The notes beneath the pieces are model-generated. The model ran no database searches and was not told the DNA's origin. It worked only from the letters and a program-made list of their open reading frames with translations. DNA of 64,000 nucleotides. Origin: Thalassococcus sp. S3 (GTDB lineage Bacteria; Pseudomonadota; Alphaproteobacteria; Rhodobacterales; Rhodobacteraceae). The DNA lies in the NCBI RefSeq assembly GCF_004216475.1, contig NZ_CP022303.1, forward strand, positions 2,480,001 through 2,544,000. Direction: 5' to 3'. Positions 34,223-48,750 of the stretch are shown piece after piece; within the stretch, counting starts at the first letter, position 1; every line of letters starts with the position of its first letter. Made by a program: the position numbers and the translations under genes.

Positions 34223-34675
34223 TTTGATCTCCTTCTCACCGCAGCCGCCTCGACCTGCGAGCCTGATATGTCGCAAGCCTAGCACAGACGCGTCGGGATC
34301 GGCCATTTAACCGATTTCAAGAGAGGGAGCGGTTCATTCTAGGGTAAACTGACGAAGGGGCATGTACATCTTTTATCCGCTATCGTGCGACGCCGACATG
34401 GCTGCATGATTCGCCTTGGTAAGCAGGTCCAGAAGCACCACGCAGGCTATGGGTGATCCGAGCGTCTCGCTGCCCACGACGGGTCTGAACCGACACCTCC
34501 TAAATGCCTTACATCGCATAAACGACAGCGATGCCTGGAAAGCGGTTACAGAGTTGCGGGCCGGCCTATTCATGCCGCTCACTAGGGGTATACCATTTCG
34601 CTGGTGCAGCCTGCGTTGCTGACATTCGCCATCGACGCAAGATATCGTACTTTCCAGGAAAAACGGGAAGGAAAG
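34223..34675. other. Gene-free stretch between GFA and TetR genes
   Basis: About 450 bases with no frame that I can support; short open frames here have no family features. It is visibly richer in A and T than the flanking catabolic DNA. It contains the palindrome GGTATACC (34588-34595), which shares the GTATAC core with the GntR operators but not the flanks. The tetR promoter should lie in its right half. Confidence 0.4.
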
Positions 34676-35266
34676 ATGGCCAGACCGAAAACCGGAGATA
34701 AGCCGGGCGCCATCCGGCAAGCGACGGTGGATGAAGTCAGCGCTGTCGGATCTACCGCTGTGTCGGTGAACAAGGTTGCCGACCGTGCGGGCGTCAGTGT
34801 TGGGACGATTTATCGATACTATCGCACCAAGGATGACCTGCTCTTCGATGTGTTCCTGCAAGTTAAGCGTGATCTTCATTCGACGATGATGGCTGCCGCC
34901 GGCGACAAGGTGGGCGCGGAGGCGCGACTTAAGGCGATGTGGTTCGCGCTCGTGGATTATGGGTTTCGGGCGCCGGGCGATTTTCTACTTGTGGAATTGC
35001 TCAGCAGCGAGACGAAGCCTCCGTTTCTTGAGCATGAAGAGCTCAGGTCGATCAACGCCACTGTTCCGGCCGAAATCCAAAGTGGTATTGATGATGGGAC
35101 GTTTGTTCAGACGAACGCATCTACAATCGAGACCGTTCTCGCCTCGCCCGCGATCACGCTTGCGCGCCAGGCATATATCAGCGGCGAAAGGATACGTCAG
35201 GACGAGGTTGAGAGGGTTTTCAGGTTGATCTGGCGTGGGATTTCCAGAGATCGCTCCGATATCTAA
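34676..35266 (+). CDS. TetR-family transcriptional regulator
   Basis: 196 residues from the ATG at 34676, preceded by GGGAAGGAAAG. The N-terminal helix-turn-helix is 'VNKVADRAGVSVGTIYRYYR' followed by 'TKDDLLFDVF', standard for TetR. The C-terminal ligand domain has no recognised effector signature. Base composition is less G+C-rich than in the operons on either side, as in the next gene. A near-perfect inverted repeat lies downstream (35385-35404), before the serine hydrolase gene, and could be its operator. Confidence 0.92.
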   Translation: MARPKTGDKPGAIRQATVDEVSAVGSTAVSVNKVADRAGVSVGTIYRYYRTKDDLLFDVFLQVKRDLHSTMMAAAGDKVGAEARLKAMWFALVDYGFRAPGDFLLVELLSSETKPPFLEHEELRSINATVPAEIQSGIDDGTFVQTNASTIETVLASPAITLARQAYISGERIRQDEVERVFRLIWRGISRDRSDI

Positions 35267-35348
35267 ACGCAGAAACGCATCAGAATTTCATCAAGGATAG
35301 TTGGCACCGAGGGGGCGGAAACTCGCCCAAGCGCGTCGCGCGCGATCG

Positions 35349-35375
35349 TTGACACGAAGTTCGCCTCAAGATAAT
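35349..35375 (+). promoter_or_regulatory. Candidate sigma-70 promoter for the serine hydrolase gene
   Basis: TTGACA at 35349-35354 and GATAAT at 35370-35375 are separated by 15 bases. The hexamers are good but the spacer is short. The inverted repeat at 35385 would lie right at the transcription start, the usual place for repressor control. Confidence 0.4.
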
Positions 35376-35384
35376 GAGCAGATA

Positions 35385-35404
35385 CTCACTAATCGTTAGG
35401 TGAG
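35385..35404. promoter_or_regulatory. Inverted repeat, candidate TetR operator
   Basis: CTCACTAA-TCG-TTAGGTGAG is an inverted repeat with 8-base arms and one extra G in the right arm. It lies between the tetR gene and the serine hydrolase gene, just after the candidate promoter. Its size fits TetR-family operators. Binding is inferred. Confidence 0.45.
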
Positions 35405-35504
35405 ATCGCTTGCCACTGCTCCTACCCCATTTGCCCGCCATTTCGCCCGCCAATCTTCTGATTGGGCACCCACCGTTTGTGGACCACAGAACAGGACGAT
35501 TTTG

Positions 35505-36839
35505 ATGAAGATATCGCGACAACTGACCAAACGCGTATGCTCGGCGGCAATTTCAGCGCTGTTCCTTGTACTGTCGGCAAGCCCGTCTTTCGCTGAGCAG
35601 GTTCAGTTGCAGATGACTGCGCCGGAAGAGGTCGGTATGGACCGCACCAGGATTGAGCGGGTGACCGACCAACTGCAGGCACTGGTCGACCAAGAGCGCT
35701 TGGCAGGCATGGTCACCATTGCCGCCCGTGACGGACAGCTTGTTCACTTTGAGACGATGGGCGTCCAGGACATCGCCACCGGCGTTCCGATGGCAGAGGA
35801 CACGATCTTTCGCCTATTTTCCATGTCGAAGCCCATCACGGGCGTCGCGTTGATGATCCTCTACGAAGAGGGTCACTTTCATCTTAACGACCCCGTTTCG
35901 AAATTCATTCCTGAGTTTGCGGACATGCAGGTCTATGCCGGTGTCGATGACGACGGAAACATGATCACCGAACCGGCCAAGAACACCATGACGATGCGCC
36001 ACCTGGTGACGCATACAAGCGGTCTTGGCTATGGCACGATGATGGGACCACAGCCGGTCCATGTGATGTTCAGCGAAAGCGGTGTGTGGGACCAAGGGTC
36101 AAACCTGCAAGAGATGATCACCAAAATCGCTGAAATCCCACTCTTGTTCGAGCCGGGGTCTGAGTTCAGCTACAGCGCCGCCATGGATGTGCAGGGCTAC
36201 CTGGTCGAACAGTTCTCTGGACAAAGCTTCGGTGACTTCCTGCAAGAGCGGCTCTTTGAACCATTGGGCATGGTGGACACAGGTTTCGCTGTACCGGAAG
36301 ACAAGCTCAACCGTTTTGCTACGCAGTATCATTACGATGAAACCGGCGCGCTGATCGCGCAGGAGCTCTATGATGGACTTGTCGGGTATGGTGAAGATCA
36401 GATCCTTCAAGCAGGCGGCTGGGGCATGGTCTCTACGGCCATGGACTACATGCGGTTCTCGCAAATGCTGCTGAACGGAGGCGTACTGGACGGCGTTCGG
36501 ATCCTGTCGCCCACGACGGTGCGTCTTATTCGGACCAATCAGCTGCCCGAACACCTGTCGAACAATCTCAAGGCTGAGTTGGGCGGACAGCCAGGCGCGA
36601 ATTTTGGCATCAACATGGGGATCGTGGAAGACCCCAACGTAAACCCCGCTGGCGGCTATTCCAAAGGGGAATACTACTGGGGCGGTGCGACCGGAACGTG
36701 GTTCTGGATCGACCCCGTCGAAGAGGTCATCTTCGTCGGAATGCTTCAACAATTCGCGGGACAACCACAGTATCCCGACGTGCGTATGATCTCAAAACAG
36801 GCATTCTATCAGGCGATAACCGAGAGTTATCAAGACTAG
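35505..36839 (+). CDS. Secreted serine hydrolase, class C beta-lactamase / esterase family
   Basis: 444 residues from the ATG at 35505 (AGGA 8 bases upstream). A signal peptide is clear ('AAISALFLVLSASPSFA'), giving a periplasmic or exported enzyme. The nucleophile motif SxxK is 'FRLFSMSKPITG'; the tyrosine motif is 'FSYSAAMDVQGY'; the third motif region is 'GGATGTWFWIDP'. This matches class C beta-lactamase-fold esterases and peptidases (EstB-like), which rarely hydrolyse beta-lactams. Substrate unknown. It is the only exported enzyme in this patch and may be controlled by the TetR gene just upstream. Confidence 0.92.
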   Translation: MKISRQLTKRVCSAAISALFLVLSASPSFAEQVQLQMTAPEEVGMDRTRIERVTDQLQALVDQERLAGMVTIAARDGQLVHFETMGVQDIATGVPMAEDTIFRLFSMSKPITGVALMILYEEGHFHLNDPVSKFIPEFADMQVYAGVDDDGNMITEPAKNTMTMRHLVTHTSGLGYGTMMGPQPVHVMFSESGVWDQGSNLQEMITKIAEIPLLFEPGSEFSYSAAMDVQGYLVEQFSGQSFGDFLQERLFEPLGMVDTGFAVPEDKLNRFATQYHYDETGALIAQELYDGLVGYGEDQILQAGGWGMVSTAMDYMRFSQMLLNGGVLDGVRILSPTTVRLIRTNQLPEHLSNNLKAELGGQPGANFGINMGIVEDPNVNPAGGYSKGEYYWGGATGTWFWIDPVEEVIFVGMLQQFAGQPQYPDVRMISKQAFYQAITESYQD

Positions 36840-37132: not shown

Positions 37133-38158
37133 TCAGGCCACGCGGTCGTCAGCGTTACTCAAGATCCTCGACCAATCTGCCTGCGCATTCGGGCACAGGG
37201 GCACATTCGTCATCACCGGCTCCGCGACAAGACCAGGTTGACGCACCGCAGCTGTAAATGTCTGGCGATGGCTTTCTCGGATATGCTCCAGCATCTCCAG
37301 CAGCGGGCCGCTATCGGCCTCTTCGATATGGGACTTGAGCGCGGAGAGCTGCACGAGGAATTGTGACAGCGCGGCCAAGACGTTGTCCCTGTTATCCATG
37401 AAGATATCGCGCCACATGAGCGCATCGGAACCCGCGATCCGGGTAAAGTCGCGAAACCCGCCCGCGGAGAAGCGCGTGCAATCGCCCTGCCGACCTTCGG
37501 CATCTCTCACTGTCTTCATCATCGAGAACGCCAGAAGATGCGGTAGGTGACTGGTCATTGCGAGAATGGAGTCGTGCTTTTGGGCAGACATGGACGCGAC
37601 CCGCGCGCCCAGAGAGATCCAGAAGTCCGAAAGACGGGTCAACGCGCGGTCATCCACATTCTGTTCCGGCGTCAGGATCACCCAGCGCCCGTGAAAGAGC
37701 TGCCCACATCCCGCTTCCGGTCCACTGGCCTCCTTCCCGGCGATGGGGTGCCCCGGAATGGCATGTACATGAGCCGGCAGCATATGGCCGAACGTGTCGG
37801 AGACTGTCGTCTTGACCGAGCCCACATCCGTAATCGTCGCGCCTGGCTGCAGCTCTGCTCGGATCGCCTGAAGCACCGGTCCGAACGCGCCAACCGGGAT
37901 CGCCAGGATCACTAGATCCGCGCCTGCAACGGCGCTGGCTGCCGTGGCGCAATAGCGATCGGCAAGGCCAAACTGGCCAAGCCTGTCACGGGTCCGTGCG
38001 CAGATGTCGTGAACACTCAACATGGCGGGCTGGTCAGACCGGGCACGCAGCGCGCGCAGGACAGACGAGCCCATGAGCCCGCCCCCGATCACCGCAATTC
38101 TTTGAAAATCGCCTAAGCCCTGCGCATCGCACCGCTCATTGATCGGTGTCATCGTCAT
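37133..38158 (-). CDS. tyrA: Prephenate dehydrogenase (TyrA family)
   Basis: 341 residues from the ATG at 38158, which has AGGAGG 8 bases upstream; a GTG at 38167 is less likely. The NAD-binding 'RIAVIGGGLMGSSVLRAL' and 'ITDVGSVKTTV' are present. The substrate loop 'HAIPGHPIAGKEASGPEAG' and 'MTSHLPHLLAFSMM' are hallmarks of TyrA. It converts prephenate to 4-hydroxyphenylpyruvate (or arogenate to tyrosine). No ACT domain is visible. It is the last gene of a seven-gene operon containing an HPPD-fold enzyme, which uses exactly its product. This looks like a pathway-dedicated copy rather than the housekeeping gene (inference). Confidence 0.93.
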   Translation of the reverse strand: MTMTPINERCDAQGLGDFQRIAVIGGGLMGSSVLRALRARSDQPAMLSVHDICARTRDRLGQFGLADRYCATAASAVAGADLVILAIPVGAFGPVLQAIRAELQPGATITDVGSVKTTVSDTFGHMLPAHVHAIPGHPIAGKEASGPEAGCGQLFHGRWVILTPEQNVDDRALTRLSDFWISLGARVASMSAQKHDSILAMTSHLPHLLAFSMMKTVRDAEGRQGDCTRFSAGGFRDFTRIAGSDALMWRDIFMDNRDNVLAALSQFLVQLSALKSHIEEADSGPLLEMLEHIRESHRQTFTAAVRQPGLVAEPVMTNVPLCPNAQADWSRILSNADDRVA

Positions 38159-38221
38159 CTCTTCCACCTCCTCACGGTCCCGCGCCCCGGCAAGCTGCCG
38201 GGGTCACAGAACACCGGGTCT

Positions 38222-39745
38222 TCACATTTGGTCGACGAACGCTTCAACGCGGGAAATCCAGGCGCTTCGGTCTGTATTTCGATACAAGCGCTGGCGGATC
38301 ATGTCGGGCGATCCCATGTGAAACCGCTCATAAAGCTGCGTGCGCCCACCGAACCCGCTTTGCGTCATGTCCCCGGCCAATGACATGACCCGCATCTGCT
38401 TGGCCGCCGACGGCGCGAGCCCTTTGAAGAACCGTTTGACCAGCGGACCGGCCTCCGGAATGGCAAAGTCGCTTTCCGAGGCGGTGGGGATGAGGGCGCT
38501 GGCCGCTACATCCTCCATGACCCTCTCTGCCCGGTCGGAGGCTTCGACCCCGAACATCCGGTAGGCGTCATTGGCCGCCGGCGAGAGGAACCCGGCCTCG
38601 GTCACGAACGCGTCTTCCTCCATCGCACGCAGGCAGGCCTTGAGCACCGAGATGTCGCCAGTGATTTCACCCAGACGGGTCAGGATCGGCGGGAACGCCT
38701 CCTTCCCGTCATAGCGTGCCAGCAATTCCAGCGTGGCCACCATGCTCTCCAGCTTCGTGACCAGACGGATCAGGGTCACGTAGCCCGACCAGGGCGGGTT
38801 GATCATGCCGATGAACCGGCTGACCAATGCCGGGTTGCGGTAGACAAAGACACGCTCCCACGGCACCAGCACATCATCGAAAATCAGTGTCGCGTCGATC
38901 TCGTCGAACCGCGTCGAGAGCGGCTTGCGCTTCGCGCTGACACCCTTGCCGTAAAGATCCCGGCACAGGATATGGAGCCCCGACGCATTCATCGGGATCG
39001 CAAAGGCCAGCGCCTGATCCTCCTCACCCGGCGACCGGGGCCGGTTGGGATAAACGATGGCCTCGTCGCAGATGGGCGATAGCGTGGCCAGGTTCTTCAA
39101 CCCTCGGACGACAATGCCGTCCTCCCGCTCTTCGACGACCTTCAGGATCAGATCGGGATCGTCCTGGTCCGGGGCCTTGCGCGTACGGTCAAAAAATTGG
39201 TCGTTCAGCGCGTGGGTCAGCGCCAGATCGTTGCGGGCGCAATAGTCCAGATACCGTTTTGCGTTGTCGCCGAATTGCGGATGGGCCTCCGACAGGACAT
39301 GCGCTGCATTTCGCAACCCCACGATCAGGTTCGAACAGAAATCCGGAAACCGACCCATAAATCCCAGCGTCTCGGCCGACCAGATCTCGGTATTGCTGCG
39401 TTTGAGCGCCAGATCTGCGCGGTCGCGTGGGGCCAGATAGCTGGCGGAAATGCGCACGCCACTTCCGTCGCGCGTCGTCATCCGGTCGCGCCACTCCGAT
39501 GAGGTCTGCAAATCGTAGAGCCGCGCCATCGTATCAACCGCACCGCGGAAGCCGTCAGCCATCGTGACGTCGTCAATCCGCTTTCCGTTTTGCCAGACGG
39601 CCCGTCCATCGCGCAGCCCCTCGCGGAATTGCTCACCGGACCGGATGCCGCTGCCCGCGTTCAGACCCTGGGTCGGATCAAGCGGTGCAAGGACAGGCAA
39701 TATGCGTTCGGACGCTTCGGGCGGCGTTCTGTCGAGAATGGTCAT
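38222..39745 (-). CDS. HpaB-type 4-hydroxyphenylacetate 3-monooxygenase family protein
   Basis: 507 residues from the ATG at 39745 (GGGAG 8 bases upstream). It belongs to the FADH2-dependent HpaB/PvcC/TftD group, with the acyl-CoA-dehydrogenase-like fold: 'WRDRMTTRDGSGVRISASYL', 'RDLYGKGVSAKRKPLSTRFD', 'DDVLVPWERVFVYRNP' and 'RFIGMINPPWSGYVTLIRL'. Such enzymes hydroxylate phenols ortho to the hydroxyl, or dehalogenate or dehydrogenate them. They need a separate flavin reductase; no HpaC-like gene is visible, and the nitroreductase in the same operon is one candidate. It sits between the aminotransferase and prephenate dehydrogenase genes. Probably modifies a tyrosine-derived phenol (inference). 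Confidence 0.9.
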   Translation of the reverse strand: MTILDRTPPEASERILPVLAPLDPTQGLNAGSGIRSGEQFREGLRDGRAVWQNGKRIDDVTMADGFRGAVDTMARLYDLQTSSEWRDRMTTRDGSGVRISASYLAPRDRADLALKRSNTEIWSAETLGFMGRFPDFCSNLIVGLRNAAHVLSEAHPQFGDNAKRYLDYCARNDLALTHALNDQFFDRTRKAPDQDDPDLILKVVEEREDGIVVRGLKNLATLSPICDEAIVYPNRPRSPGEEDQALAFAIPMNASGLHILCRDLYGKGVSAKRKPLSTRFDEIDATLIFDDVLVPWERVFVYRNPALVSRFIGMINPPWSGYVTLIRLVTKLESMVATLELLARYDGKEAFPPILTRLGEITGDISVLKACLRAMEEDAFVTEAGFLSPAANDAYRMFGVEASDRAERVMEDVAASALIPTASESDFAIPEAGPLVKRFFKGLAPSAAKQMRVMSLAGDMTQSGFGGRTQLYERFHMGSPDMIRQRLYRNTDRSAWISRVEAFVDQM

Positions 39746-39776
39746 CTTGATATCTCCCTCTGGATCGATGTCTGGT

Positions 39777-40754
39777 TCAGCCCGCAGGTGCCGGCACGGC
39801 CGTGCACCAGGCGGCATAACGTGGCAGGCGCGCCTCGACAGTCTGGAAGTAAAGCTCTTGCAAATCGCGGGTCACGGCACCGGGCTGACCATCGCCGATT
39901 TCAATGCCGTCAATGCTGGTCAGCGGCAGGATTTCCGCGATGGAGCCGCAAATGAAGACCTCATCCGCGATATAGGCCTCCGACCGGTCGACCTCCCGCT
40001 CGATGACGGTCAATCCAAGCTCCTGCCGCGCAAAGGTCAGCACCGTGTCGCGGGTGATGCTTTCCAGGATGTCGGCATTCGTGGGCGGTGTGATCAGGAC
40101 CCCGTCGCGCAGGATGAAAAGACATGCGCCCGGCGCCTCGGCCAGCTTGCCGGCGCGGTTCAGCAGCAGCGCCATGTCATAGCCCCCCGCCCTCACCTCG
40201 TTCTGCGCAAGACGGCTGTTTTGATAATTCGAACCGATCTTGACGCGGATCGGCATCGTGTCGTCCGACAGCCGCCGCCAGGAACTGACCCCCGCCGTCA
40301 ATCCGGTCTTGGCAGCCGGGGACCGGCCCATCGGAACAGCGGTGATGTGGGCCCCGCTGGGTGCGGCATGGGACACCGGATCGCCCGGCGGCGGAAACCC
40401 GAAATAGGTCACCAGATTGGCTTGCCCGTGTCCCCGGAAATCCGTGCGCTGAAACAGCTCAAGTACGGCGTCACCCAGCTCGTGCCGGGAAAAGGGCGGC
40501 GTCATGCGCATGATCCGCATGGATTGCTCCAGCCGGACCAGATGGTCATCCAGCCGGAACACATACATCCGCTCTTCATCCGCGTTCCAGTAGGCGCGCA
40601 GCCCTTCGAAGATGTTTGCGCCAAAAAACCCGGCCTGCATCCGTACATGCAACGTGCAATCGGCCCACGGCACGATCCGCCCATCCTTCCAGGCAATCTC
40701 TGGATGCTCCGACGGATAGGTCTCGATCGGGGCGGGCAAGGTTTGATGCAACAT
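39777..40754 (-). CDS. Class IV PLP aminotransferase (IlvE / branched-chain type)
   Basis: 325 residues from the ATG at 40754 (GGAG 8 bases upstream); open sequence further upstream belongs to the LysE gene. Fold-type IV features are 'LHVRMQAGFFGANIFEGLRA', the PLP lysine in 'IRVKIGSNYQNSRLAQNE', and 'KLAEAPGACLFI' with the PLP-nitrogen glutamate. Closest in pattern to branched-chain aminotransferase, but D-amino-acid transaminase and lyases share the fold. In this operon it probably aminates an aromatic keto acid rather than leucine or valine (inference). A LysE exporter gene lies just upstream. Confidence 0.9.
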   Translation of the reverse strand: MLHQTLPAPIETYPSEHPEIAWKDGRIVPWADCTLHVRMQAGFFGANIFEGLRAYWNADEERMYVFRLDDHLVRLEQSMRIMRMTPPFSRHELGDAVLELFQRTDFRGHGQANLVTYFGFPPPGDPVSHAAPSGAHITAVPMGRSPAAKTGLTAGVSSWRRLSDDTMPIRVKIGSNYQNSRLAQNEVRAGGYDMALLLNRAGKLAEAPGACLFILRDGVLITPPTNADILESITRDTVLTFARQELGLTVIEREVDRSEAYIADEVFICGSIAEILPLTSIDGIEIGDGQPGAVTRDLQELYFQTVEARLPRYAAWCTAVPAPAG

Positions 40755-40777
40755 ATCAAGAACTCCGTGTTTGGGTA

Positions 40778-41440
40778 TCAGAGGGACGTCACACGCATCG
40801 CGACGATCCAGGCAAGAAAGAGGCCGGTGAGCAACTTGGCCACGGCATGCCATGACCGGCGCCGCAGCACTGTCTTGAACGGAGAGACCGCCAGGCACAG
40901 CAGCAAGCCCCAGGCCGCAGCCCCAACCATGATCGACACGATCAGCAACGCGATGTTGAGGCCCGGACCGTCCGACAGATCGACCAAGCCGCTGACACCG
41001 AGCCAGAAGGCGATGCTCCACGGGCTTGTCAGTGTGAGCAACAGGCCCAACCCAAAGCCGCCGCGCGTCGTGGCAAGCCCATCTGCGGTGACAATCATCG
41101 AACCGCGCCACCAGGCTCGGAAATCGGCAAAGGAGGTCCAGAAGTAATGCAGCGCCAGAAGCAACAGGATGGCCAGGCTGGCAAATGTCAGTATACCGGT
41201 ATCAAGGAGTTGCGTGACGATCACCGCCGTGCCTGCGAAAACCGCGATCGCCCAGAGCGCGTCGCCCGTGACACCGCCAAGACACAGGCTGTAGCCTGCC
41301 CAGAACCCGCTCAGACTGCCGCGCCGTACGATCTCCATATTCACCGGACCGGGCGGCCAGGCCACCGACCAGCCCAATGCAAAACCCGTGAGCAGCAGCC
41401 CAAGCAGCGTATGGTCGTTCAGTGCGCCGAACTCCTCCAT
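40778..41440 (-). CDS. LysE-family amino-acid exporter
   Basis: 220 residues with six hydrophobic segments. The family signature near the N-terminus is 'GWSVAWPPGPVNMEIVRRGS' followed by 'YSLCLGGVTGDALW'. 'LLLTLTSPWSIAFWLGVSG' matches the central region. LysE proteins export amino acids and related amphoteric molecules. Its place in the middle of the aromatic operon, 8 bases from the HPPD-like gene, suggests the end product is amino-acid-like and leaves the cell (inference). Confidence 0.9.
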   Translation of the reverse strand: MEEFGALNDHTLLGLLLTGFALGWSVAWPPGPVNMEIVRRGSLSGFWAGYSLCLGGVTGDALWAIAVFAGTAVIVTQLLDTGILTFASLAILLLLALHYFWTSFADFRAWWRGSMIVTADGLATTRGGFGLGLLLTLTSPWSIAFWLGVSGLVDLSDGPGLNIALLIVSIMVGAAAWGLLLCLAVSPFKTVLRRRSWHAVAKLLTGLFLAWIVAMRVTSL

Positions 41441-41448
41441 CCCGTCGC

Positions 41449-42525
41449 CTATCCCGCGTCCGCTTTGGCGCTGGCCATTTCACGTTCGACGGCGCGGAAC
41501 AGGGCGCGGATGTTACCGCTGCCAAACCCGGTGCTGCCGCGGCGTTCAACCAGTTCCAGAAAGGCCGTCTTGCGCTCGAAGAGCGGTCTGGTGAAGGCCT
41601 GAAGCAGCAGGCCGCTTTCGTCCTCGTCGACCAGCACCTGCGCATCACGCAGAACTTCGACCGGATGAGGCAGATGCGCCACCCGGTCGGATAACTCCTC
41701 GTAATAGCTGTCCGGCACATGCAGCATCTCGATCCCTCGTGCCGTCAACCAGCGGGCGGCGGCCACGATATCAAAGACGTCAAACGCAACGTGCTGCACA
41801 CCGGCACCGCCGTGATTTTCGATGAAGGTTTGTATCTGGCTTTTCTGCTGGCCATCCCGTGGCTGCATAAAGACCAGCTTGGTGTGCTTCTGCGCGTCAG
41901 CCAGTACGACCGAATTCATCGCCGTGGTACTCGTTTCCACGAATTCCTCGTGCACCACGTCCAGACCGAACACGTCCGCATAGCGCTTCACGACCGTCTC
42001 GAAATCATCCTCGGGCAGGCAGATCGCCACGTGATCAATGCCGCGCGCCGCAAAGCCCGAACGGATCGCCTCGCCGGCGGGCACCCTTGGGATCACGCCC
42101 GATAGGCTATGCGTCAGGCCGGGATAAAGCTCGACAATGGCAGTGTCCGTCACATCGTGGTCGCGGATCACCCGACCGCCCGCACGGCGCGTGGCCTCGA
42201 CCACCGCGGCCACGTTGGGAACGCGAAAGCCCAGGTCGCGGATTGCCGTACCATGGCGCTCAACGAAAAGGCGTTCGGCCTGTTCGGCGGTTGCGTCACC
42301 CTTTGGACGGGCCGTCAGCTTGAATTTGGCCGCGCCATTGCGCAGAACCTGCGTGCCAGGACCGGCTGGGCCAGCGTCGTAAAAGCTGAGCTTATCCAGA
42401 AACAGGCTGCGCAAAGGCTCCAGATCGGCGCCCACAAGCTCAATCTGCCGGATGTCCATACCGGTTTGCGCGGGGGGCATCTGCGTGGTCGTCAGGTCTT
42501 CGATGACGGGAAGATCAAGGGTCAT
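41449..42525 (-). CDS. HPPD-fold dioxygenase, probable 4-hydroxymandelate synthase type
   Basis: 358 residues, two VOC domains. The Fe(II) ligands are in 'GIDHVAICLP', 'GAGVQHVAFDV' and 'FLELVERRGSTGFG'. HPPD makes homogentisate; 4-hydroxymandelate synthase (HmaS) uses the same substrate but hydroxylates the side chain. Typical HPPD reads 'YSALMSKVV' and 'KFPINEP' around the substrate pocket. This protein reads 'TTAMNSVVLA' and 'TKLVFMQPRD', and HmaS of glycopeptide clusters reads 'AMNSTVV' and 'LTLIEPD' (from memory). 'GSGNIRALFRAVE' also resembles HmaS. So HmaS-like activity is favoured, though not proven. It is coupled by ATGA to the FAD monooxygenase. Substrate 4-hydroxyphenylpyruvate would come from the TyrA of the same operon. 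Confidence 0.85.
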   Translation of the reverse strand: MTLDLPVIEDLTTTQMPPAQTGMDIRQIELVGADLEPLRSLFLDKLSFYDAGPAGPGTQVLRNGAAKFKLTARPKGDATAEQAERLFVERHGTAIRDLGFRVPNVAAVVEATRRAGGRVIRDHDVTDTAIVELYPGLTHSLSGVIPRVPAGEAIRSGFAARGIDHVAICLPEDDFETVVKRYADVFGLDVVHEEFVETSTTAMNSVVLADAQKHTKLVFMQPRDGQQKSQIQTFIENHGGAGVQHVAFDVFDIVAAARWLTARGIEMLHVPDSYYEELSDRVAHLPHPVEVLRDAQVLVDEDESGLLLQAFTRPLFERKTAFLELVERRGSTGFGSGNIRALFRAVEREMASAKADAG

Positions 42526-44198
42526 TGGGTCGCTCCTGTGGAGGTGGGATGTCCTGAAATACCGGCAACCGGTATCGTCCGGTCCGACGGGCCGGAGACG
42601 GGTGCGGGCCGGATCCCGTAAGGTTTCAAAAGCTGTGTCAGCTCTGCCCGGATATCCTGGATCAGCACACCGGCCAGATATCCGTCTGGGCGCACCAAGA
42701 GCGCCGGGGCGGCGGCCTGCCGCAGCAGGTCCGTCAGCTTGTGCGAAGCGGCATATTCGGCATCGTCCGCCCAGATCAGGGTGACCCCGAGACGCGAGAT
42801 GAAGGGCAATGCCGCCTCGATCCGCTCGCCCGCCGGGCTCTGCCGGGCCGCGATCAGGCCAAAGCCTCCGGCCAGATGCGCCCGCAGCGCATCGCTGCCC
42901 AGCGACAGGTTGGGCACGATGTCGCCCGGTCGCAGATTGCCCCGTGTCCGGCGCTGCACCGTATCGAGCCCCCGATACGAGGTCGGTGTCGACATCTTGC
43001 CGCTGTTGATCAAGCCATTGAGAGCCGGGAACCTGGCGGCGCCACGCACTAATGCATTCCGATACCAGTGATGCAAACGCGTGGGCGGCACCATGAACCG
43101 GATCGTCTTGCCGGTGATGGCGACGTTTTCGCGCGCCGCCTTAAACCGCTCCCTGTCGAAGGTCGTCAGAATGTCCGCAGCTGCCTGCCCCTCCAGCACC
43201 GCGGCCAGTTTCCAGCACAGGTTCTCGGCATCCTGAAGACCCGAATTCATGCCGCGTGCCCCGAAGGGCGGCAGCGCATGCGCCGCATCACCCAGCAGGA
43301 ATACGTTTCCAAGCCGCATCCGCGCCGCATGCCGCTGATGAAAGCGGTAGGTCGATGCCCATTCAAGCCGATGCTCGCGTGTGCCCGCCAGCGTCTCGAT
43401 CCGGTCGGCGATCCGATGCGGTGCGATCTCTGCCTTTGGGTCGCAATCCTTTGGCAATTGCCAATCCAGCCGCCACATACGCCCCGGTTGCGGATGCACC
43501 ACGATCTGCCGCCCCGGATTGGAGGGCGCATCGAACCAGAACCGCCTTTCCTTCGGCCAATCGACATCGAATTCCGCATCAACGATCAGAAACCGGTCCG
43601 CATGCACCCGGCCCAACCACTCCACGCCCAGTGTCTCACGCACGTTGCTGCGCACACCGTCACACCCCAGCAAGAAAGTGGTCGAGACCGTCCTGACCGC
43701 GCCGTCCTGTTGAAAGCGGATGTCAACCTTTCGATCCGGATCGGGATCCTCCGCGTCCTGCTCCAGCCCGTCGAATTCCGCACCCCAAACGATGCGGACC
43801 CGCCCCGTCCGCTCGCCAGCCGCCCGCAACAAATCTTCGATCTGCCATTGTGGCAGATTGACGAAGGCGGGTGTTCCTGTCGGTCCGGCATCGAACCGCG
43901 TTGTCCTGACCTCGGTGTTGCGCACATAGGTGCGCGACAGGTTCCAGGCGCATCCCGCCTCGCGGACCGGATGGCCGCAGCCCACATTGTCCAGAAGGTC
44001 GATGACATCCGATTGGACGCAAAGCGCTTTCGATCCGCGCCGCATCGGCTCGCTCGCCCGCTCGAGGATCAAAACAGATGCTCCGAACTGCGCCAGCCGT
44101 GCCGCCGCATAAAGCCCGACCGGCCCCGCACCCACGATAACGACATCAGGATTAGCCGGCCGATCTGGCACATTAAATGATGCAAGCGACATATTCAT
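42522..44198 (-). CDS. FAD-dependent aromatic monooxygenase (PHBH/MhpA class)
   Basis: 558 residues. The Rossmann motif 'VVIVGAGPVGLYAAARLAQF', the DG motif 'FLLGCDGVRSNVRETL' and the GD motif 'VFLLGDAAHALPPFGARGMN' define a class A flavoprotein hydroxylase. The C-terminal thioredoxin-like tail after about residue 400 is typical of the MhpA/phenol-hydroxylase subset. NAD(P)H reduces FAD on the same chain, and a phenolic ring is hydroxylated. The ATG at 44198 has only a weak GGGA ahead; ATG 44192 is an alternative. Gene order: 17 bases after the nitroreductase, overlapping the HPPD-like gene. Its substrate is probably a pathway phenol. Confidence 0.92.
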   Translation of the reverse strand: MNMSLASFNVPDRPANPDVVIVGAGPVGLYAAARLAQFGASVLILERASEPMRRGSKALCVQSDVIDLLDNVGCGHPVREAGCAWNLSRTYVRNTEVRTTRFDAGPTGTPAFVNLPQWQIEDLLRAAGERTGRVRIVWGAEFDGLEQDAEDPDPDRKVDIRFQQDGAVRTVSTTFLLGCDGVRSNVRETLGVEWLGRVHADRFLIVDAEFDVDWPKERRFWFDAPSNPGRQIVVHPQPGRMWRLDWQLPKDCDPKAEIAPHRIADRIETLAGTREHRLEWASTYRFHQRHAARMRLGNVFLLGDAAHALPPFGARGMNSGLQDAENLCWKLAAVLEGQAAADILTTFDRERFKAARENVAITGKTIRFMVPPTRLHHWYRNALVRGAARFPALNGLINSGKMSTPTSYRGLDTVQRRTRGNLRPGDIVPNLSLGSDALRAHLAGGFGLIAARQSPAGERIEAALPFISRLGVTLIWADDAEYAASHKLTDLLRQAAAPALLVRPDGYLAGVLIQDIRAELTQLLKPYGIRPAPVSGPSDRTIPVAGISGHPTSTGATQ

Positions 44199-44215
44199 TT
44201 ATCCCGGAAATACGT

Positions 44216-44833
44216 TTAATTGAAAGCGCGGAGAGAAAGACACACATCCGAGACAGAATTTCTTATTCGATTTCTCGATGCCTTTTGAATTTCAGCCTCG
44301 TTCAGTCTGTCAATTGTCTCTGCCTCGCCAATGGCGACAATAACGCAAGGTTGTAGATGCGGATTTTCCGGCAATAGAGGTTTCGCCTTTTTTATATCGA
44401 AACCACCGATCTGATGGGCCGATAGATCCATGAATTCCGCCTGCAAGGCGAGGAACGCCACAGCTGCACCCAGATCATAGATCGCGGTACGATTGGCCAG
44501 ACCATCGCTGGAAAAGACATCGACGTAACAAGCCAAGACCAGCACGTCGGCGGTTTGAGCCCAAGCCTGGTTTGACGGCGCCATGATCCCAATAAAGGCG
44601 TCGAAATCCGCTGTTCCCGACCGCGCGATCACAAACCGCCAGGGTTGTTCATTACGGCTCGACGGGGCATGGCAGGCCGCTTCAATCAGCGTCTCAATCT
44701 CTTTTGGTTTCAACCGCCTGTCAGCGAACCGTACCGCGCTTTTCCTGTTTTTTATCAAGTTGCTGATGTCCAGGACTTCAGCCTTGGAATGGCTCTGTCT
44801 TACACAATCCTGCATGGGAAATGTCAGCGTCAT
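44216..44833 (-). CDS. Nitroreductase-family flavoprotein
   Basis: 205 residues from the ATG at 44833 (AAGG 6 bases upstream). The FMN-binding pattern 'NRKSAVRFADRRLKPKEIET' and 'HAPSSRNEQPWRFVIA' is clear, and 'IYDLGAAVAFLALQAEFMDL' forms the dimer core. Family members reduce nitro groups, quinones or free flavin, or oxidise azolines. It is first in the operon. Possible roles here are flavin supply for the HpaB-type enzyme or oxidation of a side-chain alcohol such as hydroxymandelate; both are inference. The promoter gap it shares with a LysR gene is A+T-rich. Confidence 0.9.
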   Translation of the reverse strand: MTLTFPMQDCVRQSHSKAEVLDISNLIKNRKSAVRFADRRLKPKEIETLIEAACHAPSSRNEQPWRFVIARSGTADFDAFIGIMAPSNQAWAQTADVLVLACYVDVFSSDGLANRTAIYDLGAAVAFLALQAEFMDLSAHQIGGFDIKKAKPLLPENPHLQPCVIVAIGEAETIDRLNEAEIQKASRNRIRNSVSDVCLSLRAFN

Positions 44834-45191: not shown

Positions 45192-46187
45192 ATGAATGCT
45201 TTGAAAAACGCACTTTCCTACTCTTCTGTTCCCTCCATCCGCGCCCTTATCGCCTTTGAAGCAACAGGCAGGCTTGGCAGTACCGTTCGGGCAAGCCAGG
45301 AACTCAATATCTCACACTCCGCAATATCACGAAGCATCCGGGGGCTTGAAACCTCGGTGAACGTATCCCTTTTCGAACGCAAAGGCAGCGGGCTTTGCCT
45401 GACGGAAAGCGGGCGCCGGATACATGCCTGCGTTACCGCAACATTGCGGGATCTGGCCGAGACATTCGAACTGGAAAGAAAATGCGCACGCCGCAGTCAC
45501 CTGCGTGTCTCAACTACGTCCTCGATTGCGCAGGGCTGGTTGTTGCCCCGGTTGGCCGGCTTTCTTCAACGCTATCCGGATGTCGAGGTTGAAATCGTAG
45601 GCACGCGGGATCTGGAGGATATCGACAAATCAGACATCGACGTAGTAATCCGCATGGGTCAGGGGGGATGGGCGCTCTACGAGATGGAGCCGCTATGCGA
45701 TGATGTCATATATCCGGTTTGCAGCCCCCGTTTTCTGGACAAATGTCAGCAGCGCATCGAAATCTCCGACTTGCCGGCGGAGGTTTTTTTGCAGGACCTA
45801 GATCCCCTCCTAGACTGGTCACGCTGGCTTGCCGAGAACGGTATCGTGCCCCCAAAGGGACGGCGCGGTCTACGGGCCCATGGCGGCGAATTGACGATCG
45901 ATGCCGCGCGTCGAGGTCTGGGTGTCGCCCTTGCGCGGGAACTGACGGTGGAAGACGATCTGCTCAACGGACGGCTCGTGCGCGCGCATCCCGGCGGTCA
46001 GATCATCAAGAATGCCATCTGGGTCGGTGGATCCCGCAACGCTTGCAAGAAAAGTCACGTGCGCCGGTTTCGGGAATGGCTGTCGCGTGAGGTGGGCAAA
46101 AGCATGCCCGCCATGCCAAGCGCGACCGGAGCACCGGGCAGTGCCCTCACCAGACCGGCGCCAATCCCGCAGCAAAGGCCAGCATGA
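45192..46187 (+). CDS. LysR-family transcriptional regulator (GcvA-like)
   Basis: 331 residues from the ATG at 45192; the frame is open further upstream, but family homology begins here. The winged helix is 'IRALIAFEATGRLGSTVRAS', 'ELNISHSAISRSIRGLE' and 'FERKGSGLCLTESGRRI'. The effector domain ('WLLPRLAGFLQRYPDVEVEI', 'VIRMGQGGWALYEMEPL') is of the GcvA/AmpR type. It is divergent from the nitroreductase operon and is its likely regulator. The last roughly 40 bases overlap the convergent LysE-type gene, and the protein tail there ('PAPIPQQRPA') looks unconserved. Confidence 0.92.
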   Translation: MNALKNALSYSSVPSIRALIAFEATGRLGSTVRASQELNISHSAISRSIRGLETSVNVSLFERKGSGLCLTESGRRIHACVTATLRDLAETFELERKCARRSHLRVSTTSSIAQGWLLPRLAGFLQRYPDVEVEIVGTRDLEDIDKSDIDVVIRMGQGGWALYEMEPLCDDVIYPVCSPRFLDKCQQRIEISDLPAEVFLQDLDPLLDWSRWLAENGIVPPKGRRGLRAHGGELTIDAARRGLGVALARELTVEDDLLNGRLVRAHPGGQIIKNAIWVGGSRNACKKSHVRRFREWLSREVGKSMPAMPSATGAPGSALTRPAPIPQQRPA

Positions 46188-46740
46188 TCGCGCCCGTGAC
46201 CGTATGCAGCCACCGCCGCACCTGCACCTTGTCCATGACGTTGCGCAACGCCCGGCCTGCCAGCGCCCAGACCGCGATACTGAAAACCAGCACCGCAACG
46301 GCCAGCAGAACCAAATCAAACAGCGTGCCCGAAGGCGACGCGCGATGCGCGCCCGTGACCGCCAGCGCCAGAAGCCAGCTTTTCGGGTTGGTAATCTGAA
46401 AGGCCGCCATTGCCCCCGCAAAGAGAACCGGGCGTTGCTCGAAAACCGAAGGCGTGCCCCCGCCCTGCGCCTGGGTCCAGCCAGACCGGATCATGCTCAC
46501 GCCGATAAATGCAAGAATGGCAACAGGGATCCATGCCAATAGACCCAAATCGCTGACCTGACCAAACGCGGCAAAGCCCAGCCAGGCCAGCACGATCAGA
46601 CCGACGGTCCCCACAATGATCCCTGACGCCGGCGCCAGAACAAACCCCGGGCGCGTCATCGCGGCGGTATGGCTGACGATCAGATTGTTGGGACCCGGCG
46701 TGATGGTCGCAACGAAAAGAACCGTGGCGGCGGCAAGCAT
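46147..46740 (-). CDS. LysE/RhtB-family exporter
   Basis: 197 residues from the ATG at 46740, with GGGGGAG upstream inside the end of the preceding gene. The family signature 'ATITPGPNNLIVSHTAAMTR' starts at residue 11, and 'AFQITNPKSWLLALAVTGAH' follows. Six hydrophobic segments. It follows the glutathionyl-hydroquinone reductase gene by two bases, so the two are cotranscribed. It is the second LysE-type exporter within 6 kb. Open sequence upstream in the same frame lies in the other gene and is not part of it. Confidence 0.88.
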   Translation of the reverse strand: MLAAATVLFVATITPGPNNLIVSHTAAMTRPGFVLAPASGIIVGTVGLIVLAWLGFAAFGQVSDLGLLAWIPVAILAFIGVSMIRSGWTQAQGGGTPSVFEQRPVLFAGAMAAFQITNPKSWLLALAVTGAHRASPSGTLFDLVLLAVAVLVFSIAVWALAGRALRNVMDKVQVRRWLHTVTGAIMLAFAAGLAPVW

Positions 46741-46742
46741 CC

Positions 46743-47762
46743 TCAGATCTCCCCCGACTGGGCAAGAACCATTGGCCGTCCGTCCAGATTGGCGACCTTG
46801 ATTGCGCGTTGCCGCGCATCCGGGTCCCACCAGTCGATCCGGGGGGCTGTGGCAACGATGCCATGAGGGTTGATGTCGCGATCCTCCCCGTAATAGGCGG
46901 CGCGGATCGCCGCCTCGTCGAACGTGTCCGCAAAGCCGGGCAACGCATGAAGCGCACGCGCATAACGCCAAAGTGCGGGATATTCCGTCAGCCGGTGCCG
47001 GGTGCATTTGAAATGCGTCACATAGACGGCATCGAACCGGACAAGCGTCGGCCAAAGCCTCAGATCGCTTTCGGTCAGTACATCACCGTGCAGGAAACGC
47101 TGCGAGGTCAGCCGCTCTTCAAGAACGTCCAGCATGGAGAACACCTCGTTCACCGCCTCGTCATAGGCATCCTGACGTTGCGCCTTGCCCGCGCGATAGA
47201 CCGCATTCGAGAGATTGATTTGCATCGCCTCGTTCAGAACGTCGATGGGGTCTTCCAGCGGCTTGGGGCGCAGCGTCCAGCTCAACGCGCCTGGAATATG
47301 GGCCGCATCGAAGCCCCTAAGAATGTTGGCGGATTCGTTAGATACGATGGTCTGCGCGCGCGCATCCCAAAGAACCGGAACAGTCGGGCGCCCCGTATAG
47401 GCCGGGTCGGCCCGGGTATAAAGCTCATGCAGATGCACGATGTCGGCCTGCGCGCCGGGCACGCTCCACGGCGCGTCGGGCTGGCCAACCCGGTAGCCTT
47501 CGGTGCGCGGGCCCGTGGCGATATGCAAAGGCACGAACGGGGCAAGGCCTTTCACCTGCCGGGCCAGCACCGCGCGGTGCGACCAGGGGCAACTGAGTGA
47601 CGCGATCAGGTGAAAGCGCCCGGGCTCCGCAGTCAGCGACTGGATGACATATGCGGTCAGCGGCGCTCCAAAGACCGAGGGCTGACGCTCGAACCGCCCT
47701 TTTACGATCCGGTTGTCCTGTTGGGTGAGGCGGCCATTCACGATCATGATCTCAACTTTCAT
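46743..47762 (-). CDS. Glutathionyl-hydroquinone reductase (Xi-class GST, YqjG/ECM4 type)
   Basis: 339 residues. The catalytic cysteine is in 'LIASLSCPWSHRAVLARQ', the Xi-class motif CPWxHR. 'NESANILRGF', 'LRLWPTLVRFDAVYVTHFKC' and 'YYGEDRDINPHGIVATAP' are also characteristic. These enzymes remove glutathione from glutathionyl-hydroquinones, recycling quinones formed by oxidation of phenols. That fits a neighbour operon with two phenol hydroxylases. An alternative start is the ATG at 47747. It is divergent from a LysR gene 82 bases away. Confidence 0.93.
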   Translation of the reverse strand: MKVEIMIVNGRLTQQDNRIVKGRFERQPSVFGAPLTAYVIQSLTAEPGRFHLIASLSCPWSHRAVLARQVKGLAPFVPLHIATGPRTEGYRVGQPDAPWSVPGAQADIVHLHELYTRADPAYTGRPTVPVLWDARAQTIVSNESANILRGFDAAHIPGALSWTLRPKPLEDPIDVLNEAMQINLSNAVYRAGKAQRQDAYDEAVNEVFSMLDVLEERLTSQRFLHGDVLTESDLRLWPTLVRFDAVYVTHFKCTRHRLTEYPALWRYARALHALPGFADTFDEAAIRAAYYGEDRDINPHGIVATAPRIDWWDPDARQRAIKVANLDGRPMVLAQSGEI

Positions 47763-47844: not shown

Positions 47845-48750
47845 ATGCATGCCCCGCTGAATGCCCTCCGTGCGTTTGCCGCCACCTTCGAAACCGGCGG
47901 TATCCGCCCAGCCGGTCGCCTTCTTGACGTCACCCATTCGGCCATCGCCCGGCACGTGCGCGAGCTGGAAGCCGCCCTGGGCCACCCCCTGGTGGAACGC
48001 GAAGACACCGGTCGCAGATTGCGCTTCACCGAAACAGGTGAGGCGCTGGGGCGCCGGGTCGGTGACGCCCTCGCGGAGATCGAGAAGGCATGGCAGGCCG
48101 CCTCCGAAACACGCGGGCGCAATGACGTGGTGATCTCAGCCGCACCCTCTGTGGCGGCGTTATGGCTCCTGCCCCGTCTTCCCCACCTGTCGCAAGTGCA
48201 TCCCGCTCTTGAGGTTTCGGTTCTTGCCGAACAACGCCGACGCGAGCCGGGTGACGAGGGCAGCGACCTATCCATCCGCATGGGACGGCCCCGCAAGGGC
48301 GAACGGGGCGTGCCGCTGATGGATGACACGTTGCTGGCCGTCGCTGCACCCGCGTTTCTGCGACAGGTCTGGGGCCAGCGCCGGGAAGGCCGCGACGTGG
48401 CCGAGCTTAGAAACCTGCGCCTTCTGCATGACCGGGATCCCAACGCAAGCTGGACAGCCTGGGTGGACCTTCACGGCCCGGCCGCACTGGATCTGTCCAA
48501 GGGCGCGCGGTTCAATTCATCCGATCTTCTTCTGCGCGCCGCACGGCAAGGACAGGGCGTGGCCCTCGTACGCCAACGTTTGGCGGCCGACGATCTGGCG
48601 TCCGGCGCTCTGGTCCCGTTGTTTCGTGAGCTGACAGTGCCCGTGCCCGATGCCTATTGGCTGCTCGAAGCCACCTCCGGCAGTTCCGGGTCCCGCACAG
48701 CGGTGACCAAGGTACGCGACTGGCTGTTCCATCAGGCCCGGCAATCCTGA
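47845..48750 (+). CDS. LysR-family transcriptional regulator
   Basis: 301 residues. The N-terminal helix-turn-helix is 'NALRAFAATFETGGIRPAGR', 'LLDVTHSAIARHVRELEAAL' and 'FTETGEALGRRVG'. The effector domain is GcvA-like ('AAPSVAALWLLPRLPHLSQV', 'LSIRMGRPRKGERGVPLMDD'). It is divergent from the glutathionyl-hydroquinone reductase/LysE pair and is its likely regulator, perhaps sensing a quinone or aromatic acid. About 200 gene-free bases follow it. Confidence 0.92.
   Translation: MHAPLNALRAFAATFETGGIRPAGRLLDVTHSAIARHVRELEAALGHPLVEREDTGRRLRFTETGEALGRRVGDALAEIEKAWQAASETRGRNDVVISAAPSVAALWLLPRLPHLSQVHPALEVSVLAEQRRREPGDEGSDLSIRMGRPRKGERGVPLMDDTLLAVAAPAFLRQVWGQRREGRDVAELRNLRLLHDRDPNASWTAWVDLHGPAALDLSKGARFNSSDLLLRAARQGQGVALVRQRLAADDLASGALVPLFRELTVPVPDAYWLLEATSGSSGSRTAVTKVRDWLFHQARQS

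Follow-up and report, generated by a model that had tools for sequence, protein, structure and literature searches.

A rare seven-gene operon of Thalassococcus sp. S3 looks able, judging by its predicted proteins, to turn the cell's own tyrosine precursor into a small hydroxylated aromatic compound, perhaps an amino acid, and to export it. The operon lies in the window we analysed, a stretch of 64,000 nucleotides (positions 2,480,001 to 2,544,000 of contig NZ_CP022303.1), where seven closely packed open reading frames occupy positions 44833 to 37133 on the minus strand and each scores above its Pfam cut-off. The first gene encodes a nitroreductase-family FMN protein of 205 residues (44216..44833; Nitroreductase, PF00881, E=3.8e-12). 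It is followed by a 558-residue class A FAD monooxygenase of the PRK08132 subfamily (42522..44198; FAD_binding_3; NF006002, 424.5 bits with a cut-off of 416), a 358-residue enzyme with the two glyoxalase domains of the 4-hydroxyphenylpyruvate dioxygenase (HPPD) fold, which we assign to the hydroxymandelate synthase (HMS) type (41449..42525), and a LysE/RhtB-type exporter of 220 residues (40778..41440; LysE, PF01810, 56.3 bits with a cut-off of 25.6). The remaining genes encode a class-IV, branched-chain-like aminotransferase (39777..40754; Aminotran_4), which has 325 residues when its start is taken as 40754, a 507-residue HpaB-type flavin monooxygenase (38222..39745; HpaB_N/HpaB, PF11794/PF03241) and, last, a prephenate dehydrogenase paralogue of at most 344 residues (37133..38167; PDH_N/PDH_C, PF02153/PF20463).

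Calculated by hand, the coordinates leave successive gaps of 17, -4 (an overlap), 8, 23, 31 and 54 or 63 bases between these genes, and because of this spacing we infer that the seven genes form one operon. Several of the gene starts have a purine-rich stretch directly 5' of them. The HpaB-type reading frame opens at 39817, but 39745 is the more likely start since a 507-residue database entry (P0248) begins there. A LysR-family gene (about 45192..46187, plus strand; PF00126/PF03466) is divergent from the operon and its product is likely to be the regulator; the best NCBIfam match of this protein is PRK11139 (GcvA) with 231 bits, below the cut-off of 288. The arrangement of seven genes with a divergent LysR had been claimed in the original prediction, and the coordinates and Pfam matches bear it out. 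A single sigma-70-like site was seen between 36700 and 46300 (at 44960-44931), fewer than the mean of 2.8 expected from shuffled sequence. The operon has a GC content of 61.7% and its flanks one of about 65%; GC3 is clearly low in the first gene only (0.55). This dip does not suffice to mark a horizontally acquired island: the repeat search around the operon gave no inverted repeats and just four direct ones, which look like chance, and no mobile-element family was found among the ten neighbouring open reading frames scanned.

The nature of the HPPD-fold enzyme decides much of what the operon could do. Its best NCBIfam match is the HPPD equivalog model TIGR01263, whose cut-off it misses with 254.4 bits against 277, while the host's own HPPD reaches 375-376 bits. 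Residues were compared across a hand-picked 25 of 98 loci together with 40 proteins (the operon enzyme and 39 listed relatives). The iron ligands H165, H245 and E324 (His-His-Glu) align to those of the solved HMS 2r5v and are invariant in all ten members of the enzyme's clade. At four positions the operon enzyme has V218, M220, I339 and F343, and the ten clade members have Val, Met (nine) or Leu (one), Ile and Phe, whereas ten canonical HPPD rows have Pro, Asn, Phe and Phe. The Pro and Asn of the PINEP-type motif and the terminal-helix Phe that characterize an HPPD are therefore replaced here, and the host's own HPPD carries PIN and GNFKALF; loss of the Asn together with a terminal-helix Phe-to-Ile exchange is the pattern expected of an HMS. 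We take the Asn replaced by Met220 to be the equivalent of Asn282 in Arabidopsis HPPD. PMC6750108 gives an efficiency about 160-fold lower for the N282A variant of the Arabidopsis enzyme, and PMC3739788 describes a terminal-helix Phe-to-Ile variant of S. avermitilis HPPD that yields hydroxymandelate as well as homogentisate and has lost about 98% of its activity. Ile339 alone is not diagnostic of an HMS because six rows on the HPPD side (L008, L061, P0029, P0045, L010 and L073) have Ile as well. At position 343, which corresponds to Tyr339 of A. orientalis, the Tyr that marks an HMS is present in 2r5v and in the majority of the HMS clade, whereas Phe is found in 10 of 10 members of the operon enzyme's clade. 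This HPPD-like residue counts against the pathway proposed below.

The tree was built from 64 rows. To the compared set we added the HPPD of the host and three stretches from the PDB, and we removed the fragment P0020 as well as L012, L015, L019 and L097, which were in the wrong frame or had been misread. The operon enzyme falls in a clade of its own (support 100/100). On one side of a 99/98 branch stand this clade and the solved HMS chains 2r5v and 3zgj, on the other HPPD 1t47 and the host HPPD. This clade lies outside the 32-row clade that contains 2r5v and 3zgj, and the operon enzyme appears to represent a new branch of HMS. It shares with these two chains the iron ligands, the terminal-helix Ile and the absence of the HPPD Asn, but its pocket reads Val/Met/Phe where 2r5v has Thr/Ile/Tyr, and it is 33-34% identical to the Streptomyces and Actinomadura HMS members L007, L014 and L077. 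The chain 3zgj is probably an engineered variant, because the Tyr359 given in PMC3720870 is missing from it. On model score, residues and tree position together we reject a plain HPPD; residues and tree support the hydroxymandelate synthase assignment that had been made earlier, and it is a fair inference that the enzyme forms 4-hydroxymandelate. That it would instead yield homogentisate, with the operon feeding a pigment or quinone, could be argued from its best model match and from Phe343, but we consider this very improbable given the score under the HPPD cut-off, the Met and Ile replacements and the placement on the HMS side of the tree.

The rest of the host genome also bears on the function. 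Separate TyrA, HPPD, HgmA, FAH and MaiA genes are present besides the operon, with hmgA and fah at about 4.24 Mb and the operon at 2.52 Mb of the same contig. By sequence, the prephenate dehydrogenase and HPPD-like genes of the operon are extra copies beside the housekeeping TyrA, the normal HPPD and the homogentisate-degrading genes. The former shares 43% identity with the second prephenate dehydrogenase of the host (L093:4744-5667), and passes its Pfam cut-offs but misses that of the PRK07502 equivalog (317.7 against 409). HgmA or FAH beside the dioxygenase would be the sign of homogentisate catabolism, and neither these nor MaiA are in the operon. The separate TyrA, HPPD and hmgA-fah-maiA genes argue against plain tyrosine catabolism, the outcome that the original prediction had named as fatal to it and which now looks unlikely. 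What the operon has in common with that catabolic system is an enzyme of the HPPD fold and an FAD monooxygenase of the PRK08132 subfamily; a distant paralogue of the latter (L096:2801-4396, 33% identity) lies within the host's hmgA cluster. This shared subfamily, the two ring-hydroxylase-type enzymes and the LysR neighbour could point to breakdown of tyrosine or a phenolic compound via hydroxymandelate. We regard such a route as improbable, however, because the seven genes include no ring-cleavage dioxygenase or downstream hydrolase, homogentisate is degraded by genes elsewhere, and prephenate dehydrogenase is a biosynthetic enzyme, better suited to synthesis than to breakdown.

We tentatively favour, with slightly more doubt than confidence, a self-contained accessory pathway from prephenate to an exported polyhydroxylated arylglycine, probably under LysR control. 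Prephenate from the shikimate route would be converted by the operon prephenate dehydrogenase to 4-hydroxyphenylpyruvate, which the HPPD-fold enzyme would turn into (S)-4-hydroxymandelate by benzylic hydroxylation rather than into homogentisate. The HpaB-type oxygenase and the class A FAD monooxygenase would add ring hydroxyls, a further oxidation, for which no operon gene is assigned, would give the arylglyoxylate, and the class-IV aminotransferase would convert this to the polyhydroxylated arylglycine for export by the LysE-type protein. We infer these reactions, the sequence in which they run and the export step; that the product is an amino acid, in which order the hydroxyls are added and what the exporter carries are speculation. 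The HpaB-type protein scores 321.7 bits with the HpaB-1 model (cut-off 480.2). Its R132 and H178, the counterparts of R100 and H142 in the solved chain 2yyk (T. thermophilus type), are conserved in all 52 rows compared. Its Phe136, a Tyr in the solved chain, was dismissed as a mark of altered substrate since 40 of 42 further relatives also have Phe. As a guess, the nitroreductase-family protein, whose closest solved chain is 2fre (E=8.2e-17), which carries the name NAD(P)H-flavin oxidoreductase, may supply reduced flavin to this oxygenase. The LysE assignment is at family level, with no NCBIfam model above its cut-off.

The operon had been said to contain no mandelate oxidase. By Pfam this holds for its seven genes, none of which encodes an FMN_dh protein; elsewhere the genome encodes two full-length FMN_dh proteins. 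The L-lactate dehydrogenase model PRK11197 (cut-off 376) accepts one of them with 416 bits; it is also the best match of the other, L112:4865-6079, whose score of 276 bits stays under the cut-off. The lack of a hydroxymandelate oxidase in the operon counts against the pathway; L112:4865-6079 could serve, with nothing linking it to the operon. The aminotransferase, whose best solved chain is 6h65 (E=9.8e-106), lies above the cut-off of the branched-chain equivalog ilvE_I (TIGR01122; 261.7 against 245.55 bits), which likewise counts against the pathway. This enzyme could alternatively make 4-hydroxyphenylpyruvate from tyrosine, with a hydroxylated mandelate, benzoate or quinone excreted in place of an amino acid. 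For such a product speak the missing oxidase, the phenolic acids that are common substrates of HpaB-type and class A enzymes, and a class-IV aminotransferase in genome G503 (32% identical to that of the operon) that directly precedes a canonical HPPD and homogentisate dioxygenase, a tyrosine-deaminating position. We think it a real but unlikely alternative, since the operon prephenate dehydrogenase would already supply 4-hydroxyphenylpyruvate and the cargo of LysE-family exporters is mostly amino acids.

The favoured arylglycine pathway resembles the supply of 4-hydroxyphenylglycine in glycopeptide and related producers, where the genes are Pdh, HmaS, Hmo and HpgT, the last a class I aminotransferase. 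A prephenate dehydrogenase, an HMS-type oxygenase and an aminotransferase again share one cluster, and in the Actinomadura locus L077 prephenate dehydrogenase and HMS are also close together. The operon differs in having no Hmo and no NRPS in the cluster, in its two additional flavin monooxygenases, nitroreductase and LysE exporter, and in an HMS-like enzyme that belongs to another clade and has Phe343. The earlier reading by hydroxyphenylglycine logic thus holds for the prephenate dehydrogenase and the HMS-type enzyme but not for the aminotransferase, whose only domain is Aminotran_4 rather than that of HpgT. By sequence, the operon would be a variant of this precursor logic that is new in its gene set. 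The absence of an NRPS, also claimed before, applies to the operon and not to the genome, where an NRPS locus with condensation, adenylation and carrier domains (condensation-domain matches in G000:C1:4541351-4553178) lies about 2.0 Mb away. The operon could supply it with an arylglycine or other aromatic unit, but we give this very little credence, as the NRPS is distant and sits among its own neighbours (PhyH enzymes, a TPP enzyme and a class-III aminotransferase) and the operon has its own exporter. Human HPDL, comparable by its description, is also of the HPPD fold, and PMC13111500 reports that it makes 4-hydroxymandelate, from which the head group of coenzyme Q derives. A housekeeping role in ubiquinone is unlikely here because the operon, absent from the other genomes sampled, adds an aminotransferase and an exporter.

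The operon is rare in the samples searched. Of 390 genomes sampled from its order, the host alone matched the HPPD-like protein, and of 394 from its family it alone matched the HpaB alignment. A genome-contig scan gave no close relative among 80 of 526 relatives, and with its over-general patterns and mostly Streptomyces hits is no census; plasmid records gave matches below 60% only (24 and 50 records). The G503 match was ruled out as an operon relative, since it is a canonical HPPD with HgmA next to it. For three operon proteins (HPPD-like, FAD monooxygenase and HpaB-type), relatives fall in database clusters with longest contigs of equal size: all three share 48804, where each is named Aureimonas altamirensis, and 7809, and pairs of them share the sizes 24187, 22811, 435866 and 19598. 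Because of these identical sizes the three-gene core is probably linked in other organisms.

HMS is best known from actinobacterial producers of peptide antibiotics. It is possible, if doubtful, that with this operon a proteobacterium makes polyhydroxylated arylglycines in free form, or else an oxidised mandelate of a new kind, without any NRPS and through a new HMS clade with its own pocket signature, and that the product leaves the cell as a diffusible metabolite resembling an amino acid. If true, a compact and self-contained gene set with two flavin monooxygenases and an exporter would suffice for a diffusible aromatic metabolite, and the operon is small enough to be expressed whole. A proteobacterial HMS clade with a different pocket would also extend the natural variation known at the switch between the HPPD and HMS reactions.

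The seven minus-strand genes of the original prediction were all confirmed (44833-37133), each with a Pfam match above cut-off: in order, a nitroreductase (Nitroreductase), an FAD monooxygenase (FAD_binding_3), an HPPD-like protein with the two glyoxalase domains of the HPPD fold, an exporter (LysE), an aminotransferase (Aminotran_4), an HpaB-type protein (HpaB_N/HpaB) and a prephenate dehydrogenase (PDH_N/PDH_C). The divergent LysR-type gene was also found, at about 45192-46187. By their coordinates, neighbouring operon genes overlap by 4 bases or are separated by 8 to about 60 bases, and given this tight spacing a single transcript is likely. Just past the regulator, a second LysE-family ORF adjoins a glutathione-S-transferase-like gene (46147-47055 and 46743-47762), accompanied by a divergent LysR at 47845-48750. 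Downstream of the operon (34604-36839), one of the window's two low-GC stretches carries genes for a TetR-type regulator and a PF00144-family (beta-lactamase) serine hydrolase.

Plain tyrosine catabolism, the reading that would count against the original prediction, looks unlikely. The host has its own homogentisate dioxygenase, fumarylacetoacetase and maleylacetoacetate isomerase genes, grouped together, and a normal HPPD and a normal TyrA at two further places, so the operon duplicates two enzyme types, which head what is probably a separate pathway. The presence of a prephenate dehydrogenase points to a biosynthetic pathway fed by the shikimate route, not to a degradative one. This enzyme is 43% identical to the second host copy, which passes the PRK07502 cut-off of 409 with 532.3, whereas the operon protein scores 317.7. 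The operon FAD monooxygenase falls within PRK08132 (424.5 bits, cut-off 416); another member of this subfamily (L096:2801-4396, 683.2 bits, 33% identical to the operon's) is encoded in the same direction as, and in one stretch with, the host hmgA, fah and maiA.

The HPPD-like protein (41449..42525, minus strand, 358 aa) scores 254.4 bits against TIGR01263, below the cut-off of 277, compared with 375-376 bits for the host's own HPPD. Among solved structures the closest in sequence is 2r5v, identified in PMC3720870 as the hydroxymandelate synthase (HMS) of A. orientalis. For a comparison of residues we aligned 65 rows picked by hand, five of which were dropped afterwards. Positions 218/220/339/343 are Pro/Asn/Phe/Phe in 10 canonical HPPD rows and mostly Thr or Val / Ile or Leu / Ile (Val once) / Tyr in the rows grouping with 2r5v. 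The protein and its nine nearest relatives, a ten-member clade, have Val / Met (Leu once) / Ile / Phe, and all ten keep the iron ligands; P0018 and P0019 (the latter named Tistrella bauzanensis) also have Val/Met/Ile/Phe. Judged by alignment and spacing, the Ile occupies the site of the S. avermitilis HPPD Phe-to-Ile change, which, according to PMC3739788, gave hydroxymandelate and an oxepinone beside homogentisate with about 98% of activity lost. Going by motif rather than by a calculated alignment, we match the Asn absent from this clade to Asn282 in the Arabidopsis HPPD; changing Asn282 to Ala lowered efficiency about 160-fold (PMC6750108). Six rows that the tree places with the HPPDs (L008, L061, L010, L073, P0029 and P0045) have Ile too, so that Ile is insufficient alone as a mark of HMS, and Phe343 matches HPPD where 2r5v has Tyr. 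L010 and L073, two similar HPPD-fold genes of the alphaproteobacterial MAG Gw_Bodden_bin_46, carry Val/Val/Ile/Tyr, differing from both HPPD and the ten-member clade. The solved chain 3zgj appears to be an engineered variant, as it lacks the Tyr359 given in PMC3720870. In a tree of 64 rows the clade has support of 100/100, joins P0018/P0019 at 100/99 and lies on the HMS side of a 99/98 branch with the HPPDs on the other; the exact place of the host HPPD is unsure because of its very long branch. We consider it fairly probable that the enzyme forms 4-hydroxymandelate.

In the pathway we propose, prephenate would give 4-hydroxyphenylpyruvate and this (S)-4-hydroxymandelate; one or both flavin enzymes would then hydroxylate the ring, a further enzyme would oxidize the carbinol, and transamination would yield an arylglycine for export by the LysE-type protein. 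In the HpaB-type protein, the Arg and His that correspond by alignment to the catalytic residues R100 and H142 of 2yyk, a solved chain, are kept in 52 of 52 rows compared. The closest solved chain to the nitroreductase is labelled NAD(P)H-flavin oxidoreductase, and a flavin reductase is our guess for its role. A different, plasmid-borne cluster in Sinorhizobium medicae (L090, NZ_CP149880.1) likewise puts an HpaB-like gene beside a SagB-family gene, presumably of nitroreductase fold, with 3-dehydroquinate synthase II and phosphopantetheinyl transferase genes. The operon indeed holds no mandelate oxidase, as originally stated, and elsewhere the host has an FMN_dh-family protein (L112:4865-6079) that scores below the lactate-dehydrogenase cut-off; it is possibly an alpha-hydroxy-acid oxidase and a possible in-trans candidate, tied to the operon by nothing found. 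The aminotransferase scores above the branched-chain ilvE_I cut-off. An arylglycine end product is somewhat doubtful; the main rival is that hydroxymandelate is kept and the aminotransferase draws on tyrosine, giving a product that is not an amino acid. This is favored by another genome, G503, where a class-IV aminotransferase directly precedes a canonical HPPD and the homogentisate dioxygenase HgmA (L088, G503:C9).

The original prediction proposed searching for conservation of the whole operon, which proved rare in our samples, with a three-gene core probably conserved as judged from equal contig sizes. At 1e-40 the HPPD-like protein matched a single genome, the host, among 390 of the order, and at 1e-60 the clade alignment matched 2 of 385 genomes of the class (the host and G503, rejected as an operon relative for its canonical HPPD beside HgmA). 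The HpaB alignment at 1e-150 found the host alone among 394 genomes of the family and 398 of the phylum sample. These samples overlap, each being part of the whole genome collection, and the genus sample is the host alone. Among the best 11, 12 and 12 relatives of the HPPD-like protein, FAD monooxygenase and HpaB (from listings of at least 120), database clusters of all three share a longest contig of 48,804 bases, all named Aureimonas altamirensis, and another of 7,809 bases, on which the three genes would be close together; pairs share longest contigs of 24,187, 22,811, 435,866 and 19,598 bases. Because these sizes agree to the base in separate searches, it is very likely that the genes are linked in other organisms. 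More distant relatives of all three occur in Tistrella bauzanensis (P0019, P0154 and P0263). Among 98 loci, the window's own aside, only two matched two operon proteins at 1e-5: L077 of Actinomadura, with a prephenate dehydrogenase and an HMS, and L088, with an aminotransferase and an HPPD. The operon is real and, in the samples, rare; part of it is probably conserved, and its chemistry is plausible.

The likeness to hydroxyphenylglycine supply in glycopeptide producers holds for the first two steps; however, the operon lacks their hydroxymandelate oxidase, HpgT-type aminotransferase and in-cluster NRPS. The claim of no NRPS is right for the cluster but not for the genome, in which a locus with condensation, adenylation and carrier domains lies about 2.0 Mb away (G000:C1:4541351-4553178; L109 and L110). 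Near that locus are two PhyH-type enzymes, a TPP enzyme and a class-III aminotransferase. No such operon in proteobacteria is described in the titles or abstract openings among the matches listed, drawn from open-access literature with most subscription journals outside, which is weak evidence that it is new. We read the operon as a new form of a known precursor pathway.
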